Below the pieces are notes generated by a model. The model was not told the DNA's origin. It searched no databases and saw only the letters and a program-made list of their open reading frames with translations. Positions 26,457 to 33,718 of a stretch of 64,000 nt of DNA are shown here, piece by piece. This stretch comes from Vibrio artabrorum. Lineage in GTDB: Bacteria > Pseudomonadota > Gammaproteobacteria > Enterobacterales > Vibrionaceae. How positions within the stretch are numbered: position 1 is the stretch's first letter; each line of letters begins with the position of its first letter. The position numbers were made by a program, and so were the translations under genes. The stretch covers positions 558,001 to 622,000 of the forward strand of contig NZ_AP025459.1 of the NCBI RefSeq assembly GCF_024347295.1, in the 5' to 3' direction.

Positions 26457-27035
26457 TTAGTCGGCCAACTCAGCCTCTGCTAACTCTTGAACACAAGCTC
26501 GGCTGATGTCTTGATCAATGTAGGCCATACCAAGTTTATTGAGGAACTCCATGCGATCGGCAGTGCGAAGCTCGATGTCAGGGCCTGCAATGTTGTTGGC
26601 TTGATAGATGTCAGTAAGGTGAGACATGAATTGCTCACCCACACTCATCATTAACAGGCTCATCGCACCGACGTCCGGTCTTACTTTAGCTCGTTGCTTT
26701 TCCGATAGGTTTACCGCTAAGACGATAGGCTGTTCTTCACCATCGAAGCGAACGCTGCGCTCGCGAACGGTTTGCTGTGCCCAGTAGTACGCCAGCTCTT
26801 TACTCTGAGTTAAGAATACGGGTTCAACCGATTCGGTATAGTGGTTGCCGATGGTCGCCATGGTTTTTGAGGCGGCTTCGTTGAGCGCTTTGTCTCCTGA
26901 GCGTTTTAGCCCCTGATCTTTAATTGAAGCGAGCAAGGCGGAAGATGTGCCGTGATACCAAGTATCACCTATCGCGAAGCCGTTTTCTGATAACAGTATT
27001 TTTGCATCTTGTAGGTGTGTCGGTATCGAAGTCAT
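26457..27035 (-). CDS. ADP-ribosyltransferase-fold-like protein
   Basis: A protein of 192 residues from ATG 27035 (GAGAG upstream), or 196 from TTG 27047. The first half has TWYHGTSSALLASIKDQGLKRSG, then EPVFLTQSKELAYYWAQQTV and QPIVLAVNLSE. The order HGT-x-x-x-x-x-x-I-x-x-x-G-L, then a Y/F-L-T/A-S-x-x-A-x-x-Y/W block, then a hydrophobic strand resembles the PARP/ART catalytic core (H, then Y or W, then E). It is probably cytoplasmic. It is leftward, 215 bases beyond aceA, separated by a long hairpin. The fold call is visual and needs a profile search; the function is unknown. Confidence 0.6.
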   Translation of the reverse strand: MTSIPTHLQDAKILLSENGFAIGDTWYHGTSSALLASIKDQGLKRSGDKALNEAASKTMATIGNHYTESVEPVFLTQSKELAYYWAQQTVRERSVRFDGEEQPIVLAVNLSEKQRAKVRPDVGAMSLLMMSVGEQFMSHLTDIYQANNIAGPDIELRTADRMEFLNKLGMAYIDQDISRACVQELAEAELAD

Positions 27036-27130
27036 AGGCACTCTCAATCAATAGGAATTCAAACAAACGTAAGTGTGATTAGCTTAAACAGAAGTCGTTC
27101 GGTTAACTGTGGTGTGGAACGCAAATCTGA

Positions 27131-27250: not shown

Positions 27251-28849
27251 TTAATCAAATTGGTTCGATGTATTCGCTTCACCTGCCGCTTTTAGTGCGT
27301 TTTCACCCGCAAAGTACTCTTTGTGGTCATCACCCATGTCTGAACCAGACATGTTTTGGTGTTTAACACATGCGATGCCTTGGCGGATTTCTTTACGTTG
27401 AACATTCGCAACGTAACCCAACATGCCTTGGTCACCGAAGTACTCTTTCGCAAGGTTGTCAGTAGACAGCGCGGCTGTGTGGTACGTAGGCAGAGTAATC
27501 AAGTGGTGGAAAATGCCCGCTTCACGAGATGCATCGGCTTGGAAGGTGCGGATTTTGTCGTCAGCACGTTTAGACAGTTCAGACTCGTCGTATTCCGCGC
27601 TCATTAGGTTAGCGCGGTCGTATGCAGAAACATCTTCACCAGCTTCAACCATCGCATCGTATGCTTGTTGGCGGAAATTTAGCGTCCAGTTGAATGATGG
27701 AGAGTTGTTGTACACCAATTTCGCATTAGGGTGTACTTCGCGAACGCCATCCATCATCTCTTTGATTTGACCGATGTGTGGTTTCTCAGTCTCAATCCAA
27801 AGTAGGTCAGCACCGGCGTTGATGGCTTCGATACAGTCAAACACACAACGGTCTTCTCCCGTACCTTGGCGGAATTGGTATAAGCCTGAAGGTAGGCGCT
27901 TAGGTCGAACCAGCTTGCCGTCACGATTGAAGCAAACATCGCCTTCAGCCATATCAGCCACATCGATCTCTTCAACATCTAGGTACGAGTTGTAGATGTC
28001 ACCTTGGTCGCCCGGCTCTTTCACTACTGCAATTTCTTTTGTTAGACCCGCACCTTGTGAATCGGTACGCGCAACAATGATGCCGTTGTCGATGCCCAGT
28101 TCAAGGAATGCGTAACGAAGCGCACGAAGTTTCGCGTGGAAGTCAGCGTGTGGCACCGTTACTTTGCCGTCTTGGTGGCCACATTGTTTCTCATCGGCTA
28201 CTTGGTTTTCGATTTGCAGACAACAAGCACCCGCTTCAATCATCTGCTTAGCCATTAGATAAGTCGCTTCTGCGTTACCAAAACCTGCATCGATGTCAGC
28301 GATAATAGGCACTACGTGTGTTACGTGGTTGTCTATTTTGTCTTGGATGCGGTCTTGTAGATTGACATCGCCTGCTTCACGAGCGGCATCCAGTTCACGG
28401 AATAAGCCTCCTAATTCACGAGCATCGGCTTGGCGCAAGAAGGTGTATAGCTCTTCTACGAGAGCTGCAACTGAGGTTTTCTCATGCATTGATTGGTCTG
28501 GGAGTGGGCCGAACTCTGAACGAAGTGCTGCAACCATCCAACCAGAAAGGTATAGGTAGCGGCGATCTGTTTTGCCATCAAAGTGCTTCTTGATAGAAAT
28601 CAACTTTTGTTGACCGATAAAACCGTGCCAACAACCCAGAGACTGAGTGTATTGAGAGCTGTCTTTATCGTAAGCCTCCATATCCGCACGCATGATATTT
28701 GCCGTGTATTGCGCGATATCCAGACCGGTTTTGAATTTGTTTTGAGCTCGCATGCGAGCTGCAGATTCAGCATTGATTGCATCCCATGGAGCACCTGCAG
28801 CGCTTTTAGCAACTTCTATCATTTCGATATCTTGTGTAATTTGCGACAT
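27251..28849 (-). CDS. aceA: AceA, isocitrate lyase (long form)
   Basis: A 532-residue isocitrate lyase splitting isocitrate into glyoxylate and succinate. It belongs to the longer subgroup found in Pseudomonas and Acinetobacter (about 530 residues) rather than the 434-residue E. coli type. The catalytic cysteine motif is EKQCGHQDGKVTVP (near residue 220), and the Mg-binding aspartates lie in PIIADIDAGFGN. A conserved SPSFNWTL block follows near residue 400. A LysR gene is divergent and malate synthase G lies beyond it, so the glyoxylate shunt is clustered here. Confidence 0.95.
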   Translation of the reverse strand: MSQITQDIEMIEVAKSAAGAPWDAINAESAARMRAQNKFKTGLDIAQYTANIMRADMEAYDKDSSQYTQSLGCWHGFIGQQKLISIKKHFDGKTDRRYLYLSGWMVAALRSEFGPLPDQSMHEKTSVAALVEELYTFLRQADARELGGLFRELDAAREAGDVNLQDRIQDKIDNHVTHVVPIIADIDAGFGNAEATYLMAKQMIEAGACCLQIENQVADEKQCGHQDGKVTVPHADFHAKLRALRYAFLELGIDNGIIVARTDSQGAGLTKEIAVVKEPGDQGDIYNSYLDVEEIDVADMAEGDVCFNRDGKLVRPKRLPSGLYQFRQGTGEDRCVFDCIEAINAGADLLWIETEKPHIGQIKEMMDGVREVHPNAKLVYNNSPSFNWTLNFRQQAYDAMVEAGEDVSAYDRANLMSAEYDESELSKRADDKIRTFQADASREAGIFHHLITLPTYHTAALSTDNLAKEYFGDQGMLGYVANVQRKEIRQGIACVKHQNMSGSDMGDDHKEYFAGENALKAAGEANTSNQFD

Positions 28850-28977
28850 AACTATTCCTTAGTTTCACGTGGGTATGGTTGCCAACTTGGCTTGGATTAA
28901 ACTTTGCTATGGACAAAGAATAATCATGTATGTGATAATTTTGTTAATTTATAGTTATTATGTTCGGTATTTTTTTT

Positions 28978-29931
28978 ATGAATATTGCTCGTATAGACCT
29001 TAATTTACTTGTGTATTTAGACATCTTGCTACGTGAAAGAAACGTAACACGCGCCGCAAATCAGTTGGGTATTACTCAGCCAGCCATGAGCAATGGTCTA
29101 CGCCGATTACGTGATCTGTTTGAAGACCCGCTATTGGTGAGAACCAGTGAAGGGATGGTGCCGACCGAACGCGCACACAAGTTGCAGCCACTGGTTCGAA
29201 ACATCTTGGCGAATGTAGAAAAGACGTTGCAACCGACAACGGAATTTAACGCAGAAGACAGCGAACGTGTGTTCCGTATTATGGCAAGCGATTATGCAGA
29301 GTCGACTCTCATTCAGCCATTGCTTAAAAAGTTGAGTGAGATTGCCCCCAAAATACGGTTGGATATCATGACGCCAAGTGACGTGAGCTATCAGGATGTG
29401 GAACAAGGAACGGTGGATATTATAATCAACCGATTTGACGATATTCCTCAGTCTTTTCATCAGATGAGCCTTTGGCACGACGGGTTTTCTTGTCTATTTA
29501 GTTGTGACAACCCGATAGCCGATAACTTCGATATTTTATCGTATCTAAAGGCGCAACATATTTGGGTAAGTAAGACAGGTATGGGAACGGGAGTGGGAAT
29601 AAACCCAAGCGAAGCACAAAAGCTTGGTTGGATAGATGAGGCATTAATGCGCATTGGTAAAACCCGTAACATCACGGTGTTTACTCGACACTACTTGTCG
29701 GCGATTCTCTTCGCACAACAGAAGAACCTGATTCTGACTATTCCTACCAAAGCGGCGCAACTGCAGCGCAATAACCCTAGATTGTTGATCAAGCCTGCGC
29801 CATTTGCGATTGAACCCTTTGAGGTAAAAATGGCGTGGAGTCCATTGTTACAAACCAATCCCGACCATCAGTGGATGCGTCGCTTGATTAAAAGTGTTGC
29901 CAATGAAATCGAAAGTGGTGTCACGGGATAA
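28978..29931 (+). CDS. LysR-family transcriptional regulator
   Basis: A 317-residue LysR regulator from ATG 28978, or 323 from ATG 28960 (six extra hydrophobic residues); neither has a clear ribosome binding site. The N-terminal helix-turn-helix is NVTRAANQLGITQPAMSNGLRRLRDLF, with RIDLNLLVYLDILL before it in the NodD/SyrM-like style. The C-terminal effector domain starts at about residue 90. It lies between divergent aceA and downstream glcB, so control of glyoxylate-shunt genes is likely. The effector is unknown. Confidence 0.88.
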   Translation: MNIARIDLNLLVYLDILLRERNVTRAANQLGITQPAMSNGLRRLRDLFEDPLLVRTSEGMVPTERAHKLQPLVRNILANVEKTLQPTTEFNAEDSERVFRIMASDYAESTLIQPLLKKLSEIAPKIRLDIMTPSDVSYQDVEQGTVDIIINRFDDIPQSFHQMSLWHDGFSCLFSCDNPIADNFDILSYLKAQHIWVSKTGMGTGVGINPSEAQKLGWIDEALMRIGKTRNITVFTRHYLSAILFAQQKNLILTIPTKAAQLQRNNPRLLIKPAPFAIEPFEVKMAWSPLLQTNPDHQWMRRLIKSVANEIESGVTG

Positions 29932-30067: not shown

Positions 30068-32248
30068 ATGAGCAGTCGTATTCAACAGGGAAGCTTGAAC
30101 ATTGATAGCACCCTCTACCAATTAATTAATGATCAGGTAATTCCAGGGACGGGCATTGTCGCTGAAGACTTTTGGCAGTCATTTGCCACCATCCTTAAAG
30201 ATTTGGCGCCAAAAAATCGCGCTTTGCTTATCAAGCGTGAAGATCTTCAACATCAAATTGACGTTTGGCACCAAGAGCGTGCTGGGCAAACGCTAGATCC
30301 TGTGGAGTACAAACAGTTCTTACAGCAGATTGGTTATTTGGTCCCTGAAGGTGATGACTTTCAAGTGACGACAGCGAGTGTAGAACCTGAGATCGCAACA
30401 CAAGCCGGGCCGCAGCTTGTGGTGCCAATCATGAACGCACGTTTTGCACTTAACGCCGCCAATGCGCGTTGGGGCAGCCTCTATGATGCGCTCTACGGAA
30501 CGGACGTGATCAGTGAAAGTGATGGCGCGGAAAAGGGCGGAAGTTTTAATCCAGTGCGCGGCGCCAAGGTCGTGGCTTATGCTCGTGAGTTCCTTGATGA
30601 TGCCGCGCCATTAAACGGTGTCTCCCATAAAGACGTCACCCAATACAGCATCAGTAATGTAAGCATCGGCAATAAGCTGACAGCGACCCTCAATAATGGT
30701 GAAGAAGTCACTCTCATTGATAGCGACCAGTTTATTGGCTATCAAGGTGACGCCAGTTCCCCTTCGTGCATTCTTCTTAAGCACAATAATTTGCACATCG
30801 AAATTCAAATTGACCCGAGCGCACCGATTGGTAGCGTTGATGTGGCGGGTATTAAAGATGTACTGGTTGAAGCGGCACTCACGACCATTATGGATTGCGA
30901 AGACTCGGTTGCTGCAGTTGATGGTGAAGATAAAGCACTGGCTTACCGTAATTGGTTAGGCTTGATGAAAGGTGATCTGCAAGAATCGCTAGAGAAAAAC
31001 GGCAAAACCATTGTTCGTAACCTTAACCCAGATCGCCAATACACCAGCGTGACGGGGGGTGAGATTTCACTTAAAGGGCGCAGTATGTTGTTCATACGCA
31101 ATGTTGGTCACCTGATGACTAGCCCAGCCATTATTGATGCCGAAGGCAATGAAGTGCCTGAAGGTATTATGGATGGCATGATCACTTCGCTCATCGCCAT
31201 CCATGACTTAAAAGGCAATAGCGTGTACCAAAACTCAACCGCAAACAGCATCAATATTGTAAAACCTAAGATGCATGGTCCTGAAGAGGTTGCATTTACC
31301 AATGAGTTGTTCGGTCGAATAGAAGATGCGTTAGGGCTGGAGCGATTCACGATAAAAGTCGGCATCATGGACGAAGAGCGTCGTACTTCGGTTAACCTTA
31401 AAGAATGTATTCGTGCCGCTAAAGATCGTGTTGTGTTTATCAATACTGGTTTCTTAGACCGTACCGGTGATGAGATTCACACCAGCATGGAAGCGGGGCC
31501 TTTTGCCCCTAAAACACAGCTGAAAACCATGACTTGGATTGGCGCATACGAAGATCAAAACGTTGATCTTGGCTTAGCTTGTGGCCTGCAAGGTAAAGCC
31601 CAGATTGGTAAAGGTATGTGGCCAGAACCAGACAATATGGCGAAGATGATGGACGCGAAAATCGGACACCTACAAGCGGGTGCTAATACCGCTTGGGTTC
31701 CATCGCCAACCGCCGCGACTTTGCACGCGCTGCACTATCACAAGGTGAGTGTACCAAGCCGTCAGAAAGAGCTTCGTGAGCGAGTGAGAGCCAATGTCGA
31801 TGATATTCTCACTATCCCGCTACTGGGCAATCAAAAGCTGACAGCGCAAGAGATTCAAAATGAATTAGACAATAACACCCAAGGTATTTTGGGGTATGTC
31901 GTGCGTTGGATTGACCAAGGGGTAGGGTGCTCGAAGGTGCCAGATATTAACGATGTCGGTTTGATGGAAGACCGCGCGACGCTGCGTATTTCAAGTCAAC
32001 ACATTGCCAACTGGTTACGTCATGGGATTTGTAATGAAGCCCAAGTCATGCAGACTATGAAGCGCATGGCCGCAGTGGTGGATGAGCAAAATGCGGGTGA
32101 CCCGAACTATCGCAACATGGCCCCTGACTTTGAAAACAGCATTGCATTTTCAGCAGCGTGTCAGTTGGTGTTCGAAGGCTGTGCACAGCCTAGCGGTTAC
32201 ACCGAACCAGTGCTGCATGCCATGAGATTGAAGTTAAAAGCGCTTTAA
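30068..32248 (+). CDS. glcB: Malate synthase G
   Basis: A 726-residue malate synthase of the G type (E. coli GlcB is 723), condensing glyoxylate with acetyl-CoA. Visible blocks are [38 protein letters not shown] sequence near residue 115, [41 protein letters not shown] with the catalytic Arg, and [20 protein letters not shown]. Start ATG 30068 follows GAGAGGGA. It completes the glyoxylate shunt with AceA. The segment at about residues 175-260 is closely mimicked by a small protein encoded 435 bases downstream. Confidence 0.96.
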
Positions 32249-32348: not shown

Positions 32349-32384
32349 GCCGCGCTTAATTGTTTATAGCGCGGCTTTTTTTTT
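32349..32384 (+). terminator. Terminator of glcB
   Basis: GCCGCGCT and AGCGCGGC form a perfect 8-bp stem followed by nine T residues. Confidence 0.9.
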
Positions 32385-32682
32385 GCTTTTTCAGGGGAGA
32401 ATAGGGGAAACCCAATGATGATCAAAACAGTGGTACTTTATTGATGCCTGCTTTCATCTCATCCGTTTCCCATTTGCTGCTGACGTCATTTGGTATTCAC
32501 AGGGGCGGGGTTTTAAAAAGCAATTTAGTAAAATTTACAGTGTGAAGTTTTTGTTGTGAAATTGTTTGAAAAATAAAGGTAGTATGAAATACATAGAGAC
32601 CACACGGTACTAAACCATTTTGAAAAGGGTCAATCGGGATGTTTGGCCTACATGACATTCAAAGCCGTAAGAGGGAAAGACG

Positions 32683-33255
32683 ATGAATATGCTGACACTA
32701 GACAAAACAGAACTTCACAGAAACCATTCAACATTTATTGCTGAAGCTGTCTTTGCCGTTGAAATGGTGAAAGCAGACAAGCAACTCGAAAAACAGAAAA
32801 TGGCGAAACAGTTGCTTGATACCCTATTTCCTTTAGAAGCGGGTTCACACGAAGACGCGGTGAGCTATGAGATTGATTATCGACACGTTCAGGTTTACTT
32901 CAAAAACGGTGAGCATACAGGTCTGAAACGCGCTAAGCACTTTGTGGCTTACACAGGGGATAAGGCAAAACCTTCGGCCATTCTTTTCCGTGATGAGAGT
33001 GGTACACACGTTGAAGTGACAATTGGTGCTCGTAAAGGAACAGGCCGTCTGGAGTTGGTTGACATTCAAGATATCCAACTAGAGACATGCACCACCTTTG
33101 GCCAAACTGAGGTCAGCCGCTCTTCGGGTATCCGTCATTGGGTCAGCTTAGTGAAAGGTGATGAAAGCGGTCGACCGAATGCATCGAGTGAAGACAAAGA
33201 GTTCACGGCAAAGAATGGTGAAGACTACAACCTAGGTTTTTGTTTCGCAATTTAA
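32683..33255 (+). CDS. Small protein derived from a malate synthase G domain
   Basis: A 190-residue protein with a good start (GAGGGAAAGACG before the ATG). Much of its length aligns by eye with glcB encoded just upstream. LDTLFPLEAGSHEDAVSYEI parallels [41 protein letters not shown] parallels [38 protein letters not shown] parallels [16 protein letters not shown], and HWVSLVKGDES parallels [11 protein letters not shown]. This covers the beta-rich insertion domain and the edge of the TIM barrel; the catalytic Arg and most metal ligands are not included, so it should not be an enzyme. It has its own terminator. A regulatory or sensor role for a bound metabolite is possible but unproved. Confidence 0.8.
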   Translation: MNMLTLDKTELHRNHSTFIAEAVFAVEMVKADKQLEKQKMAKQLLDTLFPLEAGSHEDAVSYEIDYRHVQVYFKNGEHTGLKRAKHFVAYTGDKAKPSAILFRDESGTHVEVTIGARKGTGRLELVDIQDIQLETCTTFGQTEVSRSSGIRHWVSLVKGDESGRPNASSEDKEFTAKNGEDYNLGFCFAI

Positions 33256-33323
33256 TGCTGTGTCACCGCTATAGGCTATAAGCTATCTTACCATCGCTCT
33301 CTCTTTTAACTTTGATAACCTTG

Positions 33324-33347
33324 CCCCGCTTTATTGCGGGGTTTTTT
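33324..33347 (+). terminator. Terminator of the malate-synthase-like gene
   Basis: CCCCGC and GCGGGG pair around TTTATT and are followed by six T residues. Confidence 0.88.
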
Positions 33348-33718
33348 GTTAGAGCTATAAATAAATTGCTCGGATATCAAAGTGATCTGAAAATAATTAA
33401 CCAAAACTCTCTTTGGGCTATTGTATTGTTTAAAATGTTGTAAAATAATGATTTTTAATCTTTTTTGTCTCAGGTTTGTAGCCGGTTAATTGTTGGTTTT
33501 GACTGCGGTAGTGATCATCATCAGTCCAGAATTCAAAAAAAATGCTTTGAGCTGTGCTATAATGCGCAGCTTGAGATTGAGCTAATAAGTCCATTTGTCA
33601 CCTATTTCAGTGATTTTTACCATGTGTGTTTACGTGATGTGGCAAGCCAATCAAGTAGTAATTGGATATGGAGAGCGTCCTTATATTCGTTGATTCGGAT
33701 ATGCGAACATCATAATTT
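33348..33718 (+). promoter_or_regulatory. Upstream region of the BCCT transporter gene
   Basis: This 371-base stretch has an extended -10 element TGCTATAAT (33555-33563) without a good -35. That would give a leader of about 150 bases. No ribosome binding site precedes the transporter ATG. An 85-codon open frame overlaps that ATG as ATGA but lacks support as a gene. Confidence 0.4.

Follow-up and report, generated by a model that had tools for sequence, protein, structure and literature searches.

A free-standing malate synthase G domain of Vibrio shares an operator with the DUF3612-regulator locus

Introduction

What does the insertion domain of an enzyme do when it stands as a gene of its own? 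Malate synthase G (GlcB) contains an alpha/beta insertion domain (the MSG domain, PF20658), and we know of no explanation for the role of this domain within the enzyme. A 64,000-nucleotide stretch of the Vibrio artabrorum genome (contig NZ_AP025459.1, positions 558,001–622,000; hereafter the window) holds a gene for the domain without the remainder of the enzyme. We refer to free-standing MSG-domain proteins as FS, to the copy in the window as FS2, and to the copy at the locus of a DUF3612 regulator as core FS. Our best explanation joins an origin, a regulon and an action on the glyoxylate shunt, and as a whole we give it a probability of about 0.5; the origin and the regulon are highly probable, and the role as an effector on glyoxylate-shunt enzymes is tentative, with odds somewhat short of even. 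On this explanation FS, rather than producing malate, probably adjusts acetate metabolism.

Results

FS2 is the MSG domain without the catalytic parts

FS2 is read from an ATG start and comprises 190 residues, of which 41–184 align with residues 172–335 of the neighbouring GlcB (28% identity, E 1e-16). Its sole Pfam match at E up to 10 is PF20658 (MSG_insertion; 68.9 bits against a cut-off of 24.8), with the TIM-barrel family PF01274 unmatched in the same scan, and both sequence and fold assign it to the MSG domain; chance similarity to malate synthase G is rejected on the profile score and the alignment. A preliminary description of this stretch had proposed an MSG domain that had become a separate protein without the catalytic barrel and had suggested a search with the insertion-domain profile; this search returned the match above, and the motifs it had listed (SH-(E/K)-D, F-(V/I)-(A/G)-Y-x-GD and KGD) are all present in the GlcB alignment.

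The protein thus shares a homologous domain of the same fold with malate synthase G (NF002825/TIGR01345) but lacks the N-terminal, barrel and C-terminal domains; it scores 68 bits with NF002825 (cut-off 565) and 67.1 with TIGR01345 (cut-off 989.15), and is no full-length enzyme. In alignment FS lacks the MDxEDS active-site strand and the arginine segment, which we take to be catalytic parts of malate synthase G. For the MSG domain in the enzyme we assume boundaries of 135–262 and 296–333; a literature search on these found no paper combining the relevant terms. FS2 belongs to the family NF006511/PRK08951 (190 positions; 262.6 bits against a cut-off of 173, over residues 1–189 of 190), which is named “malate synthase” although barrel and catalytic segments are absent. 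Judged from sequence, this name is misleading for what is a 190-residue non-catalytic domain: it credits FS with an enzyme activity that the protein cannot have, and metabolic models or qPCR studies relying on the labels malate synthase and glcB can be led astray.

Purifying selection on the gene is strong, with ratios of nonsynonymous to synonymous substitution rates (dN/dS) of 0.014–0.055 against the window gene (seven of 11 comparisons, those with a computable dS; in some of these dS exceeds 1). The positions LDxxxPLxxxSHxDxxxY are strongly conserved in FS; they are also common to GlcB domains generally, so that their conservation may be structural. Because no residue in our comparison distinguishes operator-regulated domains from the remaining GlcB domains, no contact site can be named.

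FS shares its genomic slot with a second type of glcB

We divided GlcB into types A and B by NF002825 score (A at 1200 bits or more; the odd proteins of G020, G038 and G138 counted as A). In a tree of 73 rows and 145 columns, FS forms one clade (100/100), sister to type-B Vibrio GlcB (98/88). The glcB beside FS2 is of type A, and an origin of FS in this neighbour's lineage fails on phylogeny: a clade of FS with type A is rejected at P = 0.0025 in the approximately unbiased (AU) test. With the other FS of the same genome FS2 shares 59% identity, and with the regulator-locus copies of V. mediterranei and relatives 80–85%; by these identities it is therefore an old or transferred second copy. Further copies in the V. 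mediterranei group (L031–L033, L035–L037, L044) lie directly 3′ of another gene, whose representative at L031 is a radical-SAM protein, and tandem FS duplicates occur at the regulator locus of L024 (10001–11535) and L030 (10001–11660).

The other FS of this genome (C2:101068–101658) is divergent from a 521-residue protein that combines HTH_3 and DUF3612 with an IrrE-like domain. The same divergent pair is found in 24 of the fetched Vibrionaceae loci (L024 and L095 being probably one locus, and the regulator frame being broken in L021 and L022) and in three more, L141–L143. In all eight fetched type-B loci the regulator is likewise divergent to glcB, which is followed by aceA. FS and type-B glcB thus occupy one slot, since the same regulator faces both; a leader of the form CACGAGGGAAAGAnTATGAA is common to some of these genes, as at L041 and L085. 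The most economical reading, though not proven, is that a type-B glcB was cut down in place to its domain.

An operator marks FS and type-B glcB genes

The spacer between regulator and target contains a conserved 36-bp element, an inverted repeat AAATTyACA-N-TGTnnArTTT with a third half-site TTGTGAAATT, extracted for 23 FS loci and for seven of the eight type-B loci (L082 was excluded for overlapping calls of open reading frames, L026 shows part of the element and L079 has one base less). The element also precedes FS2, where none of 100 shuffles gives a match. Across the 4.44-Mb genome there are two sites at up to three mismatches, one in front of core FS and the other in front of FS2, with none in the control; searching with the core repeat by itself yields one further match, at three mismatches, against six in the control. 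The adjacent type-A glcB has no operator in the window search.

Among 196 Vibrio genomes the operator occurs in 187 (control matches, 0), and the number of sites equals that of FS plus type-B GlcB in 194, the exceptions being G085 and G090 (FS numbers per genome were obtained from scores and by subtraction between score tables). At the regulator locus of G085 we note an FS of 166 residues (L141, 8705–9205).

FS occurs with the regulator and often without GlcB

DUF3612 is found in 188 of these genomes; the other eight (G025, G052, G053, G054, G063, G124, G141, G170) are also the eight without an NF006511 match, and they have no GlcB above the cut-off. FS is present in 170 genomes, each of which has the regulator: 103 are without GlcB, 60 have type A and seven have type B. 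This count includes three genomes below the family cut-off (G013, G016 and G167), of which the two other than G016 were read as free-standing (L143, L090). Type-B GlcB without FS is found in 18 genomes, and eight have neither. The 103 genomes reject an obligate GlcB partner, and GlcB is excluded as a general partner of FS in Vibrio. The preliminary description had tied FS2 to glcB as a possible partner or assembly factor; a near glcB is indeed the upstream neighbour at six of 16 FS2 loci and is missing from the other 10, and the constant companions are instead the DUF3612 regulator and the operator.

The regulator resembles PrpR and RamB in fold

All 18 regulator members examined match DUF3612. 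Fold comparison with MtPrpR recovers the helix-turn-helix, the IrrE-like domain and the sensor fold, and from fold the DUF3612 regulator appears to be kin to the acyl-CoA-sensing PrpR/RamB; a profile search against PDB sequences returned helix-turn-helix matches only. RamB and PrpR (ScfR, IsaR; Mycobacterium, Paracoccus) control the glyoxylate and methylcitrate cycles. The vibrio regulator differs in its C-terminal part, which is DUF3612, and in its cysteine spacing, and in FS-only vibrios the operator precedes the free domain rather than aceA or aceB (as shown for this genome). Our literature search on DUF3612 found no paper. For neither this widespread regulator nor its target, present in about 170 genomes, did we find a function in print.

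Expression of FS in Vibrio vulnificus

In a V. vulnificus study, a gene named “glcB” (VV2_1647) was measured together with aceA and aceB and was reportedly induced along with them at 24 h in defined medium; “GlcB” protein was lower in a stressosome mutant (PMC10014275). The primers translate to LGCHKG and LETRTT, both within the V. vulnificus FS protein (P0078), so that the gene measured, by its primer sequences, is FS. A search for VV2_1647 returned nothing beyond this paper, and searches for PRK08951 (full text) and for malate synthase with insertion domain and standalone found no paper. Elsewhere a “malate synthase-related protein”, which may or may not be FS, is named among genes expressed in marine enrichments (PMC7546218).

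Free domains recur outside Vibrio

The NF006511 cut-off is passed by 57 of 150 Vibrionaceae genomes, in two of 13 genera (g1 and g11; the g11 loci L086 and L087 show the divergent regulator–FS pair), and one FS relative among the matches listed is named from Gallaecimonas. Across a class-wide sample of 321 genomes only the present genome passes it, and DUF3612 is found in five. Stand-alone domains come in three types: Vibrio FS, a form of 112–113 residues between regulator and aceA, and one mostly of 123–176 residues in another gammaproteobacterial family. The second type is seen in G557, where a free domain (a 137-residue open frame; 113 residues in the database) lies between the regulator with its operator (two mismatches) and aceA, a full GlcB being encoded elsewhere in the genome. 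In G466, which represents the third type, aceA-like and glcB genes stand opposite the regulator (site with three mismatches), and a free-domain gene located separately is preceded by an operator of its own (two mismatches).

At E up to 0.001, domains of the G466 type fall into 332 clusters, of which 120 are listed and some may be GlcB fragments, and 73 of 96 genomes of that family match the free domain. The 30 best-scoring loci comprise four of GlcB itself and 26 free domains (L203 with an internal stop codon), weaker stand-alone frames falling outside this set. An operator at up to five mismatches is present in 24 of the 26 (reversed control, 0 at up to seven); in the remaining two the free-domain gene starts at the locus edge (L183) or the aceA-like gene reaches the fetched edge (L195). 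An aceA-like gene stands beside the free domain in eight of the 26, ordered operator, aceA, free domain in L192, L193, L199, L201 and L203, the same with glcB in L200, and operator, free domain, aceA in L204, with L195 the eighth. At least eight genomes of the family have a stand-alone frame within about 3 kb of GlcB (G640, G658, G672, G680, G688, G700, G703, G711).

On 105 columns only, a single origin of all stand-alone types is not rejected (AU P = 0.27); FS with type B alone is not the best grouping there, though likewise not rejected (P = 0.40), and in the best tree the three types lie close to different GlcBs. At L140 (7116–11688) a DUF3612 regulator faces an aceA-like gene and a 537-residue gene (perhaps aceB), and the operator there is weak, with five mismatches; this may be an ancestral regulon.

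A model for FS and its alternatives

We propose that a type-B glcB, divergent from the regulator and followed by aceA, lost its catalytic parts while the domain was retained in place, and that the DUF3612 regulator, which has the PrpR/RamB fold, would bind the operator and switch FS in response to an acyl-CoA. One regulator should drive both copies, because FS2 carries the operator too. FS would be the output of the switch and not only its brake, since in this genome the operator precedes the two FS genes and no others, and a circuit feeding back solely on itself would achieve nothing. Having neither catalytic residues nor an active site, FS most probably works through contact, the partner lying at the acetyl-CoA/glyoxylate node; the best candidate would be isocitrate lyase (AceA), or else malate synthase A (AceB), favoured because the free domain adjoins aceA-like genes in other lineages and because of the co-induction reported in V. 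vulnificus. More loosely held is the idea that the MSG domain can come loose as a regulatory module and has parted from the enzyme on several occasions, always within the regulon of a DUF3612 acyl-CoA regulator, to act on the glyoxylate shunt as the non-catalytic output of that switch; if true, this would give the domain a function. The FS module points to an acyl-CoA control layer so far unrecognised in vibrios, and its defined regulator, site and target offer a way to learn the purpose of the extra domain of malate synthase G.

Several observations weigh against this model. Seven Vibrio genomes hold both FS and type-B GlcB (for example G092, at L083 and L084), and for these plain in-place replacement is too simple, because the two coexist. 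The link to aceA is indirect in Vibrio, since aceA does not adjoin FS in the fetched Vibrio loci and the aceA of this genome has no operator in a genome search at up to three mismatches. Binding of the operator by the DUF3612 protein is inferred from position and co-occurrence; G085 has one NF006511 match more than operator sites (two versus one), and G090, the ninth genome without a site, has FS and a spacer (L079) with the site minus one base. The Pfam family ScfR/DUF2083 is unmatched in the 18 regulators at E up to 10 (where filters drop most weak matches), and their cysteine tail reads C-X5-C-X5-C in the 18-row alignment (the third cysteine not in all), without the C-X2-C-X4-C iron-sulfur motif described for PrpR (PMC6765138).

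FS could instead bind the DUF3612 regulator itself as a co-regulator in negative feedback, its domain having kept a regulator contact of GlcB so that a trigger enzyme was reduced to the trigger. In its favour, every FS genome has the regulator, and in other lineages too free domains are found behind an operator of this kind, but with sites only before the two FS genes such feedback has no output here unless the regulator has targets of other sequence, and we think it unlikely. Just as doubtful, in our view, is a role without a protein partner in which FS, as buffer or sensor, would bind some small molecule from the acetyl-CoA/glyoxylate node; a ligand sensor had also been suggested in the preliminary description. 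Where a regulator has a single target, that target often deals with the inducer, and the LDxxxPLxxxSHxDxxxY positions are strongly conserved, yet the presumed catalytic segments are missing and GlcB domains in general have those same positions.

That FS serves malate synthase G as a dedicated partner or assembly factor is more improbable still, for the 103 FS genomes without GlcB, the 18 with type-B GlcB and no FS, and the adjacent glcB without operator all speak against it, whereas proximity to type-A glcB here and at L008, L010, L013, L015 and L016 (with a gene between in the first three) and to GlcB in the G466 family would fit. Least credible by far is a functionless, decaying remnant; its catalytic parts are gone and its origin is probably a truncation, but the purifying selection on FS2 refutes a pseudogene, and the operator kept in 187 genomes and the protein level reported in V. 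vulnificus also oppose it.

Signals and genes around FS2

Features of the window are collected in Table 1. FS2 is likely a separate transcript from glcB, because a hairpin and T-run follow the latter. The preliminary description had credited FS2 with its own ribosome binding site and terminator, and both have counterparts here: the Shine-Dalgarno-like GAGGGAAAG resembles the sequences at other FS loci and at some loci of type-B glcB, and a hairpin follows the gene, although with one hairpin found around FS2 against 1.6 expected by chance it is weak evidence alone. A sigma-70 scan around FS2 gave three matches where 3.3 were expected, and so adds no information.

Table 1. Features of the window around FS2.
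Feature	Position	Strand	Basis or remark
aceA, isocitrate lyase	27251..28849	-	domain scan
LysR-type regulator between aceA and glcB	28960..29931	+	domain scan
glcB, full-length malate synthase G, type A	30068..32248	+	profile scans, tree
Hairpin and T-run after glcB	32349..32385	+	by eye; scanner skips loops longer than 8
Operator common to the DUF3612-regulator locus	32528..32563	+	0 mismatches; 119 bp before FS2 start codon
Shine-Dalgarno-like GAGGGAAAG	32671..32679	+	read by eye
FS2, free-standing MSG alpha/beta-domain protein, second paralogue, NF006511/PRK08951 family	32683..33255	+	profiles, alignment
Terminator-like hairpin and T-run after FS2	33323..33352	+	hairpin 33323–33342 from scan; T-run by eye

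An FS2 copy at 88% identity or more is held by 17 loci (the window and L001–L016), L014 lying at a contig edge and being excluded from the neighbour counts. The six with a near upstream glcB are the window and the five loci named above; at L008, L010 and L013 the gene between glcB and FS2 lies on the opposite strand and, judged from sequence, is aldehyde-dehydrogenase-like. The other 10 have a Cache-domain gene (by domain scan) and genes that look transporter-like upstream. Beside aceA, the window encodes on the reverse strand (26457–27047) a conserved protein (cluster c23, eight members) that is also found next to aceA in type-A glcB loci.
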